The notes beneath the pieces were generated by a model. The model made no database searches. It was given only the letters and a program-made list of their open reading frames with translations, and was not told the DNA's origin. Source: Rubrobacter tropicus (GTDB lineage: Bacteria; Actinomycetota; Rubrobacteria; Rubrobacterales; Rubrobacteraceae). Taken from it: a stretch of 64,000 nt of DNA. Position numbers and translations under genes: made by a program. How positions within the stretch are numbered: the first letter of the stretch is position 1; each line of letters starts with the position of its first letter. This document shows, piece after piece, positions 2,989 through 56,461 of the stretch. The DNA lies in contig NZ_CP045119.1 in the NCBI RefSeq assembly GCF_011492945.1, positions 1-64,000 of the forward strand, in the 5' to 3' direction.

Positions 2989-3183
2989 TTGGACCCCGAA
3001 CCCGGCATAACGCTCGGGCAGGCGTTGAAGGCCTCTGACCTCGTCGGGAGCGGGGGGGAGGCGAAGGTCCTGATCCAGGCGGGGGAGGTCCTCGTGAACG
3101 GCGAGGTCGAGACCCGCCGCGGCCGGAAGCTCGTCCCGGGCGACGTTGTCGAGGTGGGTGACGAACGCCTGGAGGTCGGTTGA
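2989..3183 (+). CDS. S4-domain RNA-binding protein (YaaA/RlbA-like)
   Basis: A 64-aa protein consisting almost entirely of an S4 RNA-binding fold. It has the typical core IQAGEVLVNGEVETRRGRKL (residues about 24-43) and the closing GDVVEVGDERLEV. Small S4 proteins of this kind (YaaA/RlbA in Bacillus) sit between dnaN and recF and are associated with ribosome biogenesis; the exact role here is inference. It starts with TTG directly after the dnaN stop and its TGA overlaps the TTG start of recF by 4 nt, so translational coupling is likely. The position is more typical of Firmicutes than of well-studied Actinobacteria. Confidence 0.85.
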   Translation: MDPEPGITLGQALKASDLVGSGGEAKVLIQAGEVLVNGEVETRRGRKLVPGDVVEVGDERLEVG

Positions 3184-4331
3184 CCTCGTACCTGCGCGCC
3201 CTGCGCCTCGTCAACTTCCGCAATTACCCCGACGACACGGTCCTCCTCGGCCCGGGCCTGAACGTCGTGGTCGGGGACAACGCCCAGGGGAAGACCAACC
3301 TGCTCGAAGCGATCTCCTTTGCCGTCACCGGCTCCTCCACCCGCACCGCCAACGACGCCGAGGTGGTCCGCTGGAAACAGGACTTCGCCCGCGTCGAGGC
3401 CCGCGTCTCCTTCGACGACTCTTCGGACGAACGCAAGGTCGCCGTCGGCTACGCCCCCGGCCAGAAGAAGCGCCTCACCGTGGACGGGGCGTCCGCGGCT
3501 TCGCTCGCAAACTACTCCGCCGGCGGTGCGGGGGTACGGGCCGTCACGTTCTTCCCCGACGACATCAGGATCGTGAAAGGTTCCCCATCGGACCGTAGGG
3601 AGTTTCTCGATGGGCTCCTCTCGACCCTGAAGCCCTCTTACGCGAGGGCCGTGTCGGAGTACGCCAAAGCCGTCCAGCAACGCAACCAGCTGCTGCGAAG
3701 AATCAGGGACGGTTTCTCGTCAGAGCGGACGTTGTGGACGTGGGACCGGAAGGTGATCGAGCTCGGGGAAGAGGTGCTCCGGGGCCGCCAGGCGGCCATA
3801 GGGCCCCTCGAGCACTACTTCGAAAGCTCTCTAAGGGCCCTGTACGGCTCGGAGAAGGCCGCGATCCGTTACTCCTATAGCGCCACCCTCGACGGCTACG
3901 CGGAGACGCTCAGAGGGGCGCACAGCTCGGACATCGACAGGGGCACGACCTCCGTGGGGCCGCACCGGGACGACTTCGAGGTGCTGCTCGGCGGGGTGAA
4001 CCTCACGACGTTCGGTTCGCAGGGCCAGCAGCGGCTGGCCACGCTCGCGCTCAAGTTCGCGGCCAGGGACCACATCAGGGGGGAGACGGGGGAGGACCCG
4101 ATCCTGCTCTTCGACGACGTCATGAGCGAGCTGGACGAGCGCCGGCGAGACTTTCTCTCGGGATACTTTCTGGAGAGCACGCAGGCCGTCATAACCACCA
4201 CGAACCTCGAATACTTCGACGCCGAAGTCCTCGGCCGGGCCCGCGTGATACGCATATCTGGTGGCGCCGTCGTGGATACTACAAGCGGTAGTGTAAGCGC
4301 GCGGGAGTTGTCGTCTCAGAAAAAGGCTTAG
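3180..4331 (+). CDS. recF: DNA replication and repair protein RecF
   Basis: RecF, an SMC-like ATPase that works with RecO/RecR to load RecA at single-strand gaps. It is 383 aa. Walker A GDNAQGKT is at residues 32-39, the ABC-type signature FGSQGQQR is near 280, and Walker B ILLFDDVMSELD is near 307-318; all are intact. The TTG start at 3180 overlaps the end of the S4 gene. Only 129 bp separate recF from gyrB. In many Actinobacteria this gap holds a DUF721 gene (dciA); there is no room for one here. Confidence 0.97.
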   Translation: MTSYLRALRLVNFRNYPDDTVLLGPGLNVVVGDNAQGKTNLLEAISFAVTGSSTRTANDAEVVRWKQDFARVEARVSFDDSSDERKVAVGYAPGQKKRLTVDGASAASLANYSAGGAGVRAVTFFPDDIRIVKGSPSDRREFLDGLLSTLKPSYARAVSEYAKAVQQRNQLLRRIRDGFSSERTLWTWDRKVIELGEEVLRGRQAAIGPLEHYFESSLRALYGSEKAAIRYSYSATLDGYAETLRGAHSSDIDRGTTSVGPHRDDFEVLLGGVNLTTFGSQGQQRLATLALKFAARDHIRGETGEDPILLFDDVMSELDERRRDFLSGYFLESTQAVITTTNLEYFDAEVLGRARVIRISGGAVVDTTSGSVSARELSSQKKA

Positions 4332-4359
4332 GTAAGCCACAAAACCGCAAAAACGCGCG

Positions 4360-4387
4360 TTGAGAAACGCGGGAGTTGTGTTACAAT
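4360..4387 (+). promoter_or_regulatory. Probable gyrB promoter
   Basis: TTGAGA at 4360-4365 and TACAAT at 4382-4387, spaced 16 bp, predict a transcript start near 4394 and a leader of about 67 nt before gyrB. The -35/-10 pair and spacing match the proposed ssb promoter near 55959. Confidence 0.55.
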
Positions 4388-4448
4388 CTCCGGGTGCAAA
4401 CCTCTATCGAAAAGAACGGTCTTGTTACTTTCGCGGAACATGAGATGA

Positions 4449-6398
<1,950 letters not shown>

Positions 6399-44503: not shown

Positions 44504-45724
44504 TTAGTGGCACCAACCGCACCTCTTGCAACCGTAGCCTCCTCTGCAGCACTGACGCACGACGGCCCACGTGCAGATAACAAGCGCGCACGCGGCGCAG
44601 AGCAGGTAGCCTCCCCAGCAGGTGATCGCGCACGCCCGGCACTGGTACGCGACGCAACCTATCGACTTGAGGTATTTGCAGGAGCTGTACCCGTATGCGA
44701 TATCGCACGGGTTGCTGCACTTCCTGTCTGGGAGACAGAAGCCGCTACCCCGTGTCGGAGGCAAAGAGTCGGCTTTATCCAGCAGGATCTGACGGTGTCC
44801 GTTCGAACTGGCCTCCTCCAACACCAGCCCTTCGCCTTCCTGCCTGTAGAGCATAGCCTCCGACTTGGTCTTTACCTGATCCTTAGGCAGGAACCTCGGC
44901 TTCTCGTACTCGTAGTAGACCAGCAGACGATCGCTGTGCGGCATTACGAAAGAGAGGGCCACCATGCCGTCTCCTCCCGACAGGACGTGCCTAGCGCCCT
45001 TCACGACGGCCAGATCGCCTGAGAAGGTAGGTTTGCCGTCGGCCGACGAGATCTCTCCGTTGTCGAGGTTGATCGCCTCCAGAATCATGCGGCGGTCCTT
45101 CCCGGCGTCTGCGATCTCCGCTTCGACGCGGCGGCCGTTCAAGACTTTGTCCCGCCAGCCTTTTCCCATCAGGTTCACAACGTCCGGGCGCCTGGCCACC
45201 CTACGGGCGGTGTTCGCTAGCTCGGCCCCGGTCAGTTCTTGGTAATCGACCGAGGAAGCTGCATCGGCCGGCGAAGGTAACTTGCCGGTGCCGGACAAAA
45301 CAGACAACGCTACCGCAGCCCCACCCACACCCTTGAGAAACTGTCCGCGGGAGAGGCCCGATACCGCCCTGATGGCGGCCGAATCTGCCAACTCGAGATC
45401 TGCGTTGGCCGCTCCCAGCACCTGCATGACCCGCCACGTCGGGACGAGACCGAGGGCCCGGCTCAGACGGGCGCCCATTCGCACGCCGGTCCAGGCCTTC
45501 ACCGGACCACCGTTGAGCTCGATAAGCGTAGGAGCCCAGGGCGCGTCATCCCCGAAGGCTTCCCTTCGCCAGTGCTCCATCATGGGGTCATTGAGGCTGA
45601 GAACCTCTACTTTATCTACGACGCGCTCCTCGATCCGCCGGGCCAGCTCGCTACAGGTCATGCATCCGGCGTCGAAGCCGAGCACCAGTCTACGCCCGCC
45701 GGGTTGGGCCTTCGTCTCCTCCAC
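44504..45724 (-). CDS. Thioredoxin-like / Tat-signal / 16-cysteine polyprotein (halocin-C8-like layout)
   Basis: 406 aa with four parts. (1) Residues 1-110: thioredoxin-fold domain with CMTC at 21-24 and a cis-Pro-like APWAPTLIEL at 61-70. (2) Residues 123-145: Tat-like signal, SRGQFLKG followed by a hydrophobic run. (3) Residues about 158-325: soluble middle domain containing LNGRRVEAEIADAGKDRRM and MPHSDRLLVYYEYEKPRFLP. (4) Residues 330-405: a 76-residue Cys-rich tail with 16 Cys (330, 336, 340, 349, 357, 362, 365, 369, 376, 379, 384, 392, 393, 399, 402, 405) and hydrophobic stretches. The order Tat signal, middle domain, Cys-rich tail recalls precursors of halocin C8. Homology is not verified. 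GTG start with GGAGCGGGG upstream. No peptidase or maturation enzyme is seen nearby. Confidence 0.8.
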   Translation of the reverse strand: MEETKAQPGGRRLVLGFDAGCMTCSELARRIEERVVDKVEVLSLNDPMMEHWRREAFGDDAPWAPTLIELNGGPVKAWTGVRMGARLSRALGLVPTWRVMQVLGAANADLELADSAAIRAVSGLSRGQFLKGVGGAAVALSVLSGTGKLPSPADAASSVDYQELTGAELANTARRVARRPDVVNLMGKGWRDKVLNGRRVEAEIADAGKDRRMILEAINLDNGEISSADGKPTFSGDLAVVKGARHVLSGGDGMVALSFVMPHSDRLLVYYEYEKPRFLPKDQVKTKSEAMLYRQEGEGLVLEEASSNGHRQILLDKADSLPPTRGSGFCLPDRKCSNPCDIAYGYSSCKYLKSIGCVAYQCRACAITCWGGYLLCAACALVICTWAVVRQCCRGGYGCKRCGWCH

Positions 45725-49651: not shown

Positions 49652-50452
49652 ATGGAGAGGCTCAGGCTCACACCGCCGGGTGAGACTCGGGCGCGGGGAG
49701 GCCGCGCCCGGCTTTACGTGCGCTGGATGCCGCACCTCGGCGCCGAGGCCGTCGCCCTCTACGAGTTGCTGCGCGTCCTGCCCGACGTCGGGCATGATGC
49801 CGTCGACGCCGAGGAACTGGCGGAGCTTTTGCGTTTGACGCCCGAGGGGGTCGGGGAAGCCTTCGAGACGCTGGTGGAAGCCGGGTTCGTCTTCGAGCGG
49901 GAGGGCTGGCTGGAGGTCGCCGAGCACCCGCCGGCTGGATCGGCGCGGCCGAAGGAGGCCCGGCAAGAACGTCCCCGCGAGGTCGTTCGGAAGAGGGAAG
50001 AGTCCGTACGCGAGGCGCCGGTCCGGGACGTGCAGGTGGTGCGGGCCGAGCCGGAGGGGGTTTCGGCAGACGACTACTTCCGGTTTATGGGGACGTTGCC
50101 GGCGCCGCACATCCTGGAGTTCTTGAACGGGTATTGCGGGCGGGACGGGCTCACGCCCGACGCGGTGCGGGAGGCGCTCAAGATCGCCAGCGAGCGGGAC
50201 GCGAGGCGCGTCGGCTACGTCAGGAGCATCCTGGAGCGGTGGGTCGAGCGGGGCGTCAAGACCGTTGAGGACGTTGAGCGCTTCGAGCAGGACCGCAAGC
50301 TCAGGCTCGTTCAGGAGAGTGGGGCCGTAAAGGGCGGGGCGTTGAAGGTAAGGGAGAGCTTCGCTGGAGGGGGGGTGAGGGGTGGAACGGATAGACAATC
50401 TGCTGCCAGGCGCAGGGAGGGGTACGAGTGGCTCTTCGGGGAAGAGGGGTAA
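49652..50452 (+). CDS. DnaD-domain primosome-like protein
   Basis: 266 aa. The N-terminal winged-helix domain (about 20-90; LGAEAVALYELLRVLPDVGH and EEREGWLEV-type FEREGWLEV) is followed by a charged linker (about 95-130). The DnaD/DnaB_2 helical domain (about 135-205) has YFRFMGTLPAPHILEFLNGY and the closing YVRSILERWVERGVKT, matching YxxxILxxWxxxGIxT. DnaD proteins remodel DNA and recruit the helicase loader in Firmicutes; the same is inferred here. A TATACT at 49636-49641 ends 10 nt before the ATG. The gene overlaps the next by 71 nt. Confidence 0.85.
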   Translation: MERLRLTPPGETRARGGRARLYVRWMPHLGAEAVALYELLRVLPDVGHDAVDAEELAELLRLTPEGVGEAFETLVEAGFVFEREGWLEVAEHPPAGSARPKEARQERPREVVRKREESVREAPVRDVQVVRAEPEGVSADDYFRFMGTLPAPHILEFLNGYCGRDGLTPDAVREALKIASERDARRVGYVRSILERWVERGVKTVEDVERFEQDRKLRLVQESGAVKGGALKVRESFAGGGVRGGTDRQSAARRREGYEWLFGEEG

Positions 50453-51245
50453 GCCCGCGGAGGTCTTGAGGCTCGACGACCAGGTCTGTTCCCACTGCGG
50501 CCGGGAGCTGACCGCCGAGTGGGTCGAGTTCCCCCCCGCCCTCCAGAAGAAGTACGGCAAGGGCGGCGAGTGGTATTACCACCCCTGCACCCCCGAGTGC
50601 GAGAAAAAGAACGACACGCGCGAGTGGGAGCTCATGCGCCGCAACGCCCGCGTCGGCGCCCTCAAAGAAAAGAGCGGCCTCTCCAAGCGCATGAAGGGCT
50701 ACACCCTCACTAGCTTCAAGCCCTACGTGAGTCCCGCCGCGGCGAGGGCCATGGAGAAGGTCCAGGAGTACCTCAAAGACTGGGACGAGAACCGGAAAAC
50801 CGGCCACGGCCTGTACTTCGTCGGCGATGTTGGGACAGGCAAGACTCATCTCGCGGTCGCGGTGATGAACGAGCTAATAGCCCGCAAGCGGGTGCCTGCG
50901 CTCTTCGTCACGGTGCCAGAGCTTCTGGACAACATGCGCGGGACCTACAACGCCCCTGGCAGGAACATCGACGAGTGGATGGACTCCGTGAAGAACGCGG
51001 ATCTTCTCTTGCTCGACGACCTCGGGGCGGAGCGGGCCAACGACTGGGTCAGGGAGCGCATCTTCGTCATCGTCAACCACCGCTACAGGGAGGAGTTGCC
51101 GACCATCTTCACGTCCAACACGGGGCCCAAGGACCTCGCCGCCCAGCTCGGGGAGAGGACGGCCAGCAGGATCATCTCGATGTGCGATTGGATCTCCCTC
51201 GAAGGCGAGGACTACCGCGAGGCCGAAGTGAGGCGAGGCCTGTGA
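50382..51245 (+). CDS. DnaI/DnaC-type helicase-loader ATPase
   Basis: 287 aa AAA+ protein. An N-terminal zinc-type cluster CSHCG (residues about 36-40) pairs with HPC and PECE (about 68-73). Walker [12 protein letters not shown] is near 147 and Walker [11 protein letters not shown] near 208. The RRR-type arginine finger region SRIISMC follows. It loads the replicative helicase in the DnaI/DnaC manner; inferred from DnaD next to it. The GTG at 50382 lies 71 nt inside the dnaD-like gene in another frame; GAGGGGG upstream. The stop overlaps the next gene by 4 nt (GTGA). Confidence 0.9.
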
Positions 51246-52030
51246 GAGACGAGTTCATGATCACGAGGCAGGGAAAACAATACGTCCTGTTCCAGGGGTT
51301 GTTGGACGAGGCCCACGGCCAGGGCCTTCGCGGCATAGACACGGAACTCTTGCAGGTCCCCGATTCGGAGAATGGCAACGTCGCCATAGTCAAAGCGATC
51401 TGCGAGATGGAAGACGGGCGTAAGTTCTCGGGCATAGGCGACGCCTCCCCCGAGAACGTCGGACGGAACATAGCGCCGCACGTCATAAGGATGGCCGAGA
51501 CCCGCGCCAAGGCGAGGGCGCTGCGCGACGCGGTGAACGTCGGCGCCACGGCCCTCGAAGAGCTCTCCGAAGGCGACGACGCGCCCCCCGCCTCGTCGGG
51601 TTACGGCAGGGCGTCCCGCGGCTCCGGGGCTTCCGCCCCGGCCAGGCCCACCCCTATCCGCCCCGGCAACGCCCGCCAGGGCGAACGCCAGGGCGAAAGC
51701 CAGGCCCCACAACAGGGGCCGCAGCAGAGGGCCCGTCGGAACACGCCCGCGGCGGAGCCCGCAACCGAGGCGGACTCGGGCAGCCCCAACGGCGAGGTGG
51801 AAGAGGCGCCTTCGGCGTCCGCTTCGGCCGGCCGCAAGGGCGGCGGGAGCAGGGCCGGGGCGAAGGCGCGCAAGAGTCAGGTGGACCTGCTCAGGACCCT
51901 GGCCGGCGAGTGGGCCGGCGACGGCGGCGTAGAACGCCTGGAGAAGCGCATCGGCAAACCGCTCACGGACCTGAACCGCGCGGAGGCCGACGAGTGGATC
52001 GACCGCCTCACCCCCGAGGGCCGCGAGTAG
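51242..52030 (+). CDS. Hypothetical protein, possible Rad52/ERF-type single-strand annealing protein
   Basis: 262 aa. The GTG overlaps the stop of the dnaI-like gene; ATG at 51257 is an alternative start. The N-terminal ~95 residues ([58 protein letters not shown]) end with [20 protein letters not shown]. That helix resembles the end of Rad52/ERF-superfamily annealing proteins (as in phage recombinases). The middle is low complexity (Gly/Arg/Gln). The C-terminal ~55 residues are a separate small helical domain, [20 protein letters not shown]. The annealing assignment is inference. Co-transcribed with dnaD and dnaI homologs. Confidence 0.6.
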
Positions 52031-56020: not shown

Positions 56021-56461
56021 GTGGTCAGTTTCAACAGGGTGATCCTCGCGGGGAACTTGACGCGAGATCCCGAACTAAGGTTCACCAACGACGGTGTGCC
56101 GGTCTGCTCTTTCGGCCTCGCCGTTAACAGGGTCCGATCCCGCTCCGAGGAGGTCGACTTCTTCGACATCTCCGCCTGGCGCGAGCTCGGCGAGACGATC
56201 GCCAACTACAAGAAGAAGGGCGACCCGATCCTCGTCGAGGGACGTCTCCAGTACCGTACCTGGGAGGCCCAGGACGGCTCCAAGAGAAGCAAGGTCGACA
56301 TCACCGCCGATAACGTCCAGTTCCTCGGCGGCCGGGGCGAAGGCGGCGAGGGCGGCGGCAACGGTGCCTCGGGCGGCCGGAGCGGTGGCAGCGGCAGACG
56401 GGGCGGCCAGCGCGAAGACGTGGATATCAACGAAAGCGATTTCGAGGATATCCCCTTCTAG
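56021..56461 (+). CDS. ssb: Single-stranded DNA-binding protein
   Basis: 146 aa; coats single-stranded DNA in replication and repair. The OB-fold (about 1-105) begins VSFNRVILAGNLTRDPELRF and contains FFDISAWRELGETI and VEGRLQYRTWEAQDG. The linker is Gly/Arg-rich. The C-terminal tip DFEDIPF keeps the acidic, Phe-ending contact site for partner proteins. GTG start with AGGAGG about 7 nt upstream. A strong terminator follows. This is a separate ssb copy, not in the usual rpsF-rplI operon. Confidence 0.96.
   Translation: MVSFNRVILAGNLTRDPELRFTNDGVPVCSFGLAVNRVRSRSEEVDFFDISAWRELGETIANYKKKGDPILVEGRLQYRTWEAQDGSKRSKVDITADNVQFLGGRGEGGEGGGNGASGGRSGGSGRRGGQREDVDINESDFEDIPF

Follow-up and report, generated by a model that had tools for sequence, protein, structure and literature searches.

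In the Enterobacteriales, Aeromonadales, Alteromonadales, Bacilli, Clostridia, Aquificae and Chloroflexi, the helicase loader gene dciA has been replaced by a phage-type resident dna[CI] gene, and such exchanges of DciA for loaders of phage type are an established class of event (PMC5109545). The available text of that study places replacements in Gammaproteobacteria, Firmicutes, Aquificae, Chloroflexi and Tenericutes, and Rubrobacter xylanophilus appears in it only among the strains of a tree. In Bacillus subtilis, loading depends on DnaD, DnaI and DnaB (PMC10201434). Among phages, the replication of 80alpha needs the genes for the annealase Sak, SSB, a replisome organiser and a DnaC-like loader (PMC5499656), and a survey of RecT/Redbeta annealases found them near DnaB_2-domain replisome organisers and IstB-like genes (PMC8093625). 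The stretch analyzed here (the window) comprises positions 1 to 64,000 of contig NZ_CP045119.1 of Rubrobacter tropicus (assembly GCF_011492945.1). At 49652-52030 on its forward strand, it carries three overlapping genes, whose products are a protein with a DnaD domain, an AAA+ helicase loader of the DnaI/DnaC type and a 262-amino-acid protein, termed p3. This trio is a resident operon of the Rubrobacteraceae, a family in which DciA was not detected, and most likely represents a domesticated phage replication–recombination module that took the place of DciA and brings with it a new annealase family.

A resident operon in genomes without a detected DciA

The trio is a conserved trait of the family. 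The order dnaD, dnaI, p3 is kept in all 31 trio loci, which come from 31 genomes. The overlap between dnaD and dnaI is 71 bp in the window (50382..50452, +) and 62–74 bp across the 31 loci, whereas dnaI and p3 overlap by 4 bp in the window and their junction ranges from -41 to +4 bp. Because the overlaps recur in every locus and the N-terminus of dnaI within the overlap is conserved in sequence, they can be regarded as real. The count covers 31 of the 39 family genomes. Among the other eight, the trio is visible in G003 only through a run-on open reading frame (ORF; L025, L158), the sequence from G006 starts inside dnaI (L595), the trio of G037 carries an insert within p3, G033 was examined for its second p3 copy only (L596), and G004, G009, G017 and G019 are fragmentary assemblies. 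In quick trees, assessed solely by the Shimodaira–Hasegawa-like approximate likelihood ratio test (SH-aLRT), Rubrobacter DnaI forms one clade (SH-aLRT 99; 7 of 20 Rubrobacter rows), as do the trio copies of p3 (SH-aLRT 89). The GC content at third codon positions (GC3) of the trio is 0.85–0.88, compared with 0.84–0.94 for eight other genes of the window, and profile scans of the window found ordinary genes and no phage structural genes among the neighbours. Since order and overlaps are conserved in 31/31 loci, GC3 is host-like and no phage structural genes lie nearby, the trio is a resident operon and not a prophage remnant.

The DciA profile PF05258 has no match anywhere in the host genome (two contigs, 4.58 Mb) or in any of the 39 Rubrobacteraceae genomes, 22 of which reach a completeness of 90% or more and a contamination of 5% or less. 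Across the phylum, a sample of 197 actinobacterial genomes (19 Rubrobacteraceae and 178 others) shows PF05258 in 165 of the 178 and in none of the 19, so that the 32 genomes lacking it consist of the whole family plus 13 others; the same search was positive in 7 of 14 control genomes. The loader pair has the opposite distribution in this sample. DnaB_2 scores above its cut-off in 18/19 family members and 0/178 other actinobacteria, and the same 18 genomes each have a DnaI orthologue that scores above 500 bits (the next best match in the sample reaches 158 bits); the member with neither (G019) is an assembly of 640 contigs. A p3 match, paralogues counted, is present in 38/39 family genomes. The window opens with dnaA, dnaN, recF, gyrB and gyrA, and the usual site of dciA between recF (3180-4331) and gyrB (4461-6398), both identified by NCBIfam, is an empty gap of 129 bp (4332..4460, +). 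The sequence-only reading had proposed this gap, the coordinates of the trio and its coupling by overlaps, all of which hold, and the whole-genome search for DUF721/DciA that it called for found no dciA elsewhere.

The dnaD-like gene (49652..50452, +) encodes 266 amino acids that match PF07261 (46.0 bits, cut-off 22) and TIGR01446 (44.3 bits, cut-off 24.95), both above their curated cut-offs, as well as phrog_186, the DnaD-like helicase loader (2e-13). Its nearest solved relative is the DnaD-like structure 2zc2 (2.1e-5). The DnaD (DnaB_2) domain lies at 50081..50281 (+) and contains YVRSILERW (50216..50242, +), which we take to be the YxxxIxxxW motif of DnaD proteins; Y189, I193 and W197 are invariant in 21/21 alignment rows. 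The DnaD_N winged helix PF21984 has no match in the protein at E ≤ 1, and MarR_2 matches weakly at residues 39-82 (E 0.049). The dnaI/dnaC-like gene (50382..51245, +; GTG start) encodes 287 amino acids with matches to PF01695 (47.9 bits, cut-off 24.1), NF005992 (232 bits, cut-off 189) and phrog_50, the DnaC-like helicase loader (1.2e-67). DnaI (PDB 4m4w, 5.5e-28) is its nearest solved relative, followed by other loaders that include E. coli DnaC (7.6e-22). The Walker motifs, with Walker A reading GDVGTGKT (50823..50846, +), and four cysteines (C36, C39, C69 and C73; 50487..50600, +) are retained in 20/20 alignment rows, and the cysteines possibly form an N-terminal zinc site, a role that we assume by analogy with DnaI.

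Loader genes of related kinds were also seen elsewhere in the phylum. Two DciA-lacking genomes outside the Rubrobacteraceae carry prophage-type modules (gene names partly by reading): G106 has ERF, SSB-like and DnaC-like genes (locus L312), and G188 has RecT-like, organiser-like and DnaC-like genes (locus L314). By reading of gene names, dnaB of family f29 overlaps at its end with a gene for a DnaI-like ATPase, in the order dnaB-dnaI-like-purA (L303, L306), and in family f39 a dnaI-like gene likewise overlaps the end of dnaB and adjoins purA (L305). The DnaI-like proteins of L302-L306 form one clade, and all five genomes (G087, G181, G127, G145 and G172) also have a DciA match, contrary to the rule that a resident dna[CI] does not coexist with dciA. 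Such families, with dciA plus a dnaB-linked dnaI-like gene, may show a stage that precedes the loss of dciA.

Origin of the loader pair

The rubrobacterial loader resembles the resident dna[CI] systems in being an AAA+ protein of PF01695 with a conserved location and a single clade in a lineage that has lost dciA; it differs from them in that Actinobacteria are absent from the events listed in the available text and in that it shares its operon with a predicted annealase (PMC5109545). The phage 80alpha module is alike in combining a Rad52-like annealase (Sak), a replisome organiser and a DnaC-like loader, and unlike in being carried by a phage, including SSB and having another annealase family and another gene order (PMC5499656), which is Sak-SSB...organiser-DnaC (L316). 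The closest loaders in the annotated phage collection are those of the Bacillus phages Pavlov and Palmer (33% identity; 32.6% for Palmer), and loaders on viral contigs reach 37–38% identity to Rubrobacter DnaI over most of the protein. In Palmer, as in the trio, DnaD stands directly 5' of the DnaC-like loader, whereas the annealase is RecT-like and lies upstream (RecT...DnaD-DnaC; L279). Phage ul36 has a comparable module with other annealase content, arranged SSAP-SSB-DnaD (SSAP, single-strand annealing protein). The gene kinds of the trio match this core phage set of annealase, replisome organiser and DnaC-like loader, and the presence of a phage-style loader pair and a predicted annealing protein in one operon suggests a phage replication kit adopted for the host chromosome. 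Transfer would have run from phage to host, probably once in the ancestor of the Rubrobacteraceae, with dciA lost afterwards.

Another possible, if not the favoured, origin is that the DnaD-DnaI pair moved between Chloroflexota and Rubrobacteraceae and that p3, derived from a copy that the cell already had, joined the pair afterwards. In the free quick tree, which leaves out viral rows above L250, Rubrobacter and Chloroflexota DnaI separate and each lies near its own viral rows. A tree constrained to join Rubrobacter with 15 Chloroflexota DnaI rows is not rejected (p-AU 0.584 in the approximately unbiased test) and has a log-likelihood 4.58 higher than the free quick search. Since the joint tree stands and even scores slightly higher, the trees do not decide between a separate adoption from a phage and a transfer between phyla. 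The gene context of the Chloroflexota loaders agrees with a transfer, since in 10 of 16 Chloroflexota-type DnaI loci the ORF upstream of the loader gene, which overlaps or adjoins it, shows the pattern Y...[ILV]...W (in 3 of the 16, the upstream sequence reads as the end of dnaB), and so does the occurrence of p3 in both phyla and of a second p3 gene elsewhere in Rubrobacter. Against it, the DnaD domain of Rubrobacter differs by eye from that of the Chloroflexota, and the Chloroflexota p3 loci that were fetched hold no DnaI match.

The sequence-only reading had likened the pair to the helicase-loading route of Firmicutes. Both gene kinds are indeed present, and as in B. subtilis a DnaD-domain protein accompanies a DnaI-type ATPase; unlike in B. 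subtilis, there is one DnaB_2 protein, dnaD and dnaI overlap by 71 bp and a third gene is added (PMC10201434). A profile search found a single DnaB_2-domain protein in the host genome, and a second one comparable to the loader DnaB of B. subtilis is therefore lacking. The parallel with Firmicutes also gives way to a nearer one, because the closest resident counterpart among those sampled is in the Chloroflexota, where dnaI is often preceded by an overlapping DnaD-like gene. The phylogeny of the ATPase suggested by the same reading returned the Rubrobacter rows as the one clade described above.

p3 and its predicted role

Family knowledge and genomic context suggest how the three proteins could act together. 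The DnaI-like AAA+ protein would take over from DciA the loading of the replicative helicase, and the DnaD-like protein, as a primosome organiser, would recruit the loader–helicase complex to single-stranded DNA, both at oriC and where forks have stalled. p3 would be a two-domain single-strand annealing protein, with a Rad52-fold domain, a flexible linker and a Redbeta-type C-terminal domain expected to bind the tail of SSB. By annealing or holding strands on SSB-coated DNA, p3 could supply templates for restart by DnaD and DnaI. The window contains ssb 4 kb 3' of the trio (56021..56461, +), and the acidic tail of its product, ending DFEDIPF, is a possible target of the p3 C-terminal domain. 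It is rather probable that this operon provides the Rubrobacteraceae with their resident helicase-loading system and that p3 is an annealing partner. The bolder claim is more doubtful, namely that a whole phage module including its annealase is the chromosome's only helicase-loading machinery, that a Rad52-type annealase works in fork loading or restart, and that p3 is a new annealase family of phages, Chloroflexota, Armatimonadota and Rubrobacteria.

It is unlikely that the trio serves only fork restart and repair, with initiation left to an unrecognised loader or to a DciA too diverged for PF05258. An annealase partner does point to restart, and the 13 of 178 genomes outside the family that also lack PF05258 mean that the model is imperfect or that other loaders exist. 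On the other side, DciA is missing in all 39 family genomes, the recF-gyrB gap measures just 129 bp, DnaI and DnaD accompany each other in 18/19 family members with a highly fragmented assembly as the exception, and a resident dna[CI] together with loss of dciA is the pattern described in the available text of PMC5109545.

The product of the p3 gene (51242..52030, +; GTG start) has at its N-terminus a conserved core of about 110 residues, which a variable linker connects to a helical domain at the C-terminus. AlphaFold2 models the core (residues 1-110; 51242..51571, +) with 10-residue means of the predicted local distance difference test of 89–98, as a β-hairpin followed by a helix, three strands and a long helix; the C-terminal domain is modelled as helical over residues 204-262 (51851..52027, +). 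The Rad52 annealase fold is described as combining a β-hairpin with a three-stranded sheet against which two helices pack (PMC9870868), and this order of elements, as distinct from their packing, is seen in the predicted models of both the window p3 and its closest viral relative (L053). The core contains the motif TRAKARA (51500..51520, +), in which T87, R88, A89, K90, A91 and R92 are invariant in 28 diverse rows. In the trio of G037 (L594:3965-5620), an in-frame insert of about 325 amino acids stands directly before T87, in this most conserved site of p3; it begins with Cys, ends with Gly-Asn and is intein-like, with no Pfam match.

When the window model was searched against the PDB with Foldseek, human RAD52 chains ranked 1–14 (best E 1.1e-4), and VIA-align gave RAD52 Z-scores of 8.0–8.5 over 86–101 residues at 3.2–3.4 Å. 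TM-scores normalized by target length were 0.34–0.45 for the RAD52 chains ranked 1–14 and up to 0.52 for a lower-ranked chain of 92 residues, in a comparison made without the archaeal representatives of PMC11783212, where a TM-score above 0.5 to a representative of the SSAP superfamily is used. Matches in a viral structure library include proteins named Erf, RecT and Rad52. For the C-terminal domain, the comparison rests on the L053 homologue, whose domain aligns with the C-terminal domain of Redbeta in three entries (8tg7, 8tfu and 6m9k, whose titles name the SSB tail or lambda exonuclease as the bound partner) with Z 9.6–10.2 over 57–60 residues at 1.3–1.4 Å. VIA-align warns that helical bundles may score high Z by chance; the low deviation and the three concordant entries argue against a chance match here. 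The Redbeta domain is absent from the displayed VIA-align rows for the window model, where the N-terminal domain filled the list. A sequence search of the PDB with the L053 C-terminal domain gave no match. Taken together with its settings in phages, p3 is predicted to be a Rad52-type annealing protein, resembling the Rad52/Redbeta superfamily in its predicted hairpin-alpha-beta3-alpha core and in the C-terminal domain of its homologue (PMC9870868; PMC11783212). It differs from the described SSAP families in lacking a sequence match.

Several results pull away from this prediction, and they bear on whether p3 could be another nucleic-acid-binding protein of the alpha-beta3-alpha fold, similar to a double-stranded RNA-binding domain (dsRBD) and acting, for example, as a regulator of the operon. 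dsRBD chains reach Z 7.9 with the window model, tied with RAD52. In the L053 model, the N-terminal domain scores Z 8.5 with Rv1738, above RAD52 at Z 7.6, and Foldseek lists Rv1738 (3.1e-3), 80alpha Sak (3.1e-3) and RAD52 (6.6e-3), with no match at E ≤ 0.001. Sequence profiles give no link to known annealases: hmmsearch of p3 against the PDB yielded one chance match (E 3.6), and hhalign of the p3 core against Sak and ERF profiles did no better than controls. The inputs were a 114-row p3 core, 48-row Sak, 84-row ERF and 30-row dsRBD sets, with DnaD and DnaI controls; in default local mode E-values were 0.088–0.79 and the DnaD control scored above ERF. This hhalign test is without power, because ERF and Sak, whose relationship is known, were not matched to each other either (probability 1.7), and the non-significant result with the RNase III dsRBD set shares that limit; among the comparisons with described SSAP families by sequence, the negative Pfam search is the informative one. 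A dsRBD-like protein is nonetheless quite improbable, given the Foldseek ranking of RAD52 for the window model, the 3 of 114 p3 homologues that end in SSB-like acidic PF tips, and the fit to an annealase of the β-hairpin, of the Redbeta-like C-terminal domain of the viral homologue and of the Gam and SSB neighbours. The sequence-only reading had guessed a Rad52/ERF-type gene, which fold predictions and phage contexts favour and sequence profiles do not. Its proposed profile search of the 262-amino-acid protein returned no Pfam model at E ≤ 1, PHROG 22961 (function unknown) being the sole family above noise. The ERF domain was not found as an annealase of the Rubrobacteraceae, since none of its 4 matches in 217 genomes is in a family member.

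In the literature searched, neither an actinobacterial replacement of dciA with an annealase-like gene in the operon nor the p3 family was found, and only PMC5109545 links Rubrobacter substantively with DciA or DnaI (a supplementary table of that study may hold a Rubrobacter entry). To the exchanges of DciA for phage-derived loaders already on record, the trio contributes a deep actinobacterial example, and it offers a simple test case for the coupling of strand annealing and helicase loading in restart. To our knowledge, no earlier exchange of this kind has kept an annealase-like gene in the same operon.

Genomic settings of p3 relatives

p3 belongs to a hitherto undescribed family of annealase-like proteins, which occurs widely among phages and bacteria and might be of use for recombineering in hosts that are thermophilic or of high GC content. 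Relatives are present in 2 phage records, 4 plasmid records and 28 viral contigs, as well as in Chloroflexota, Armatimonadota and seven genomes of one other actinobacterial family (f18). In the Paenibacillus phage API480, p3 lies between a host-nuclease inhibitor gene and SSB-primase-polymerase genes; on the viral contig L053, its flanking genes are a Mu Gam-like gene and one for a DnaD-like loader; and it precedes dnaB by two or three genes in one Rossellomorea phage and in two plasmid-like elements. Replication and recombination families recur among the viral neighbours, each in 1–3 members (76 of 103 called neighbours were scanned, the 27 left out being mostly short or doubtful ORFs).

p3 is not tied to DnaI: all seven f18 genomes with p3 also carry DciA, and so do the five Armatimonadota genomes that were searched, in which no match to the DnaI profile exceeds 31 bits. 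No single virus with all three trio genes was found: the 80 best DnaI loci include 7 with DnaD and none with p3, and the 28 viral p3 loci include one with DnaD and none with a DnaI match. Among 29 p3 genomes outside the Rubrobacteraceae, a chosen subset of a longer list, 9 have DciA, 16 have a DnaI-profile match of at least 64 bits, none has both and 4 have neither. p3 thus appears independent of the type of loader, and what is special to the Rubrobacteraceae is the union of annealase-like gene, organiser and loader in one operon. A prophage remnant, for which only the phage relatives of all three proteins could speak, is ruled out by the 31/31 conserved loci, the single clades, the host-like GC3 and the neighbourhood free of phage structural genes; phage-type neighbours, which the sequence-only reading had named as refuting evidence, are absent.

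Further copies of p3 occur within Rubrobacter. The host genome has a second p3 gene (L031:5233-5895; around 689300 of G000:C1). Such second copies have the same STAS/helix-turn-helix-like gene directly upstream in 22/24 loci and are followed by a sigma factor gene and often thyX (names by reading). The 264-kb plasmid NZ_CP045122.1 of Rubrobacter marinus holds a copy two genes after ruvC (L052:10001-10672) that is sister to the trio copies in the p3 tree. On two contigs labelled as Rubrobacter metagenome-assembled genomes (L139, L174), p3 groups with Chloroflexota copies and the neighbours differ, so these contigs are possibly mis-binned. In another such assembly, thyX contains a long insert that reads like an intein (L182:4646-6640). 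Elsewhere in the window, an ORF of 406 amino acids on the reverse strand (44504-45724) has two paired cysteines close to its start, and its last 70 residues are very rich in Cys, a pattern reminiscent of halocin C8-like precursors.

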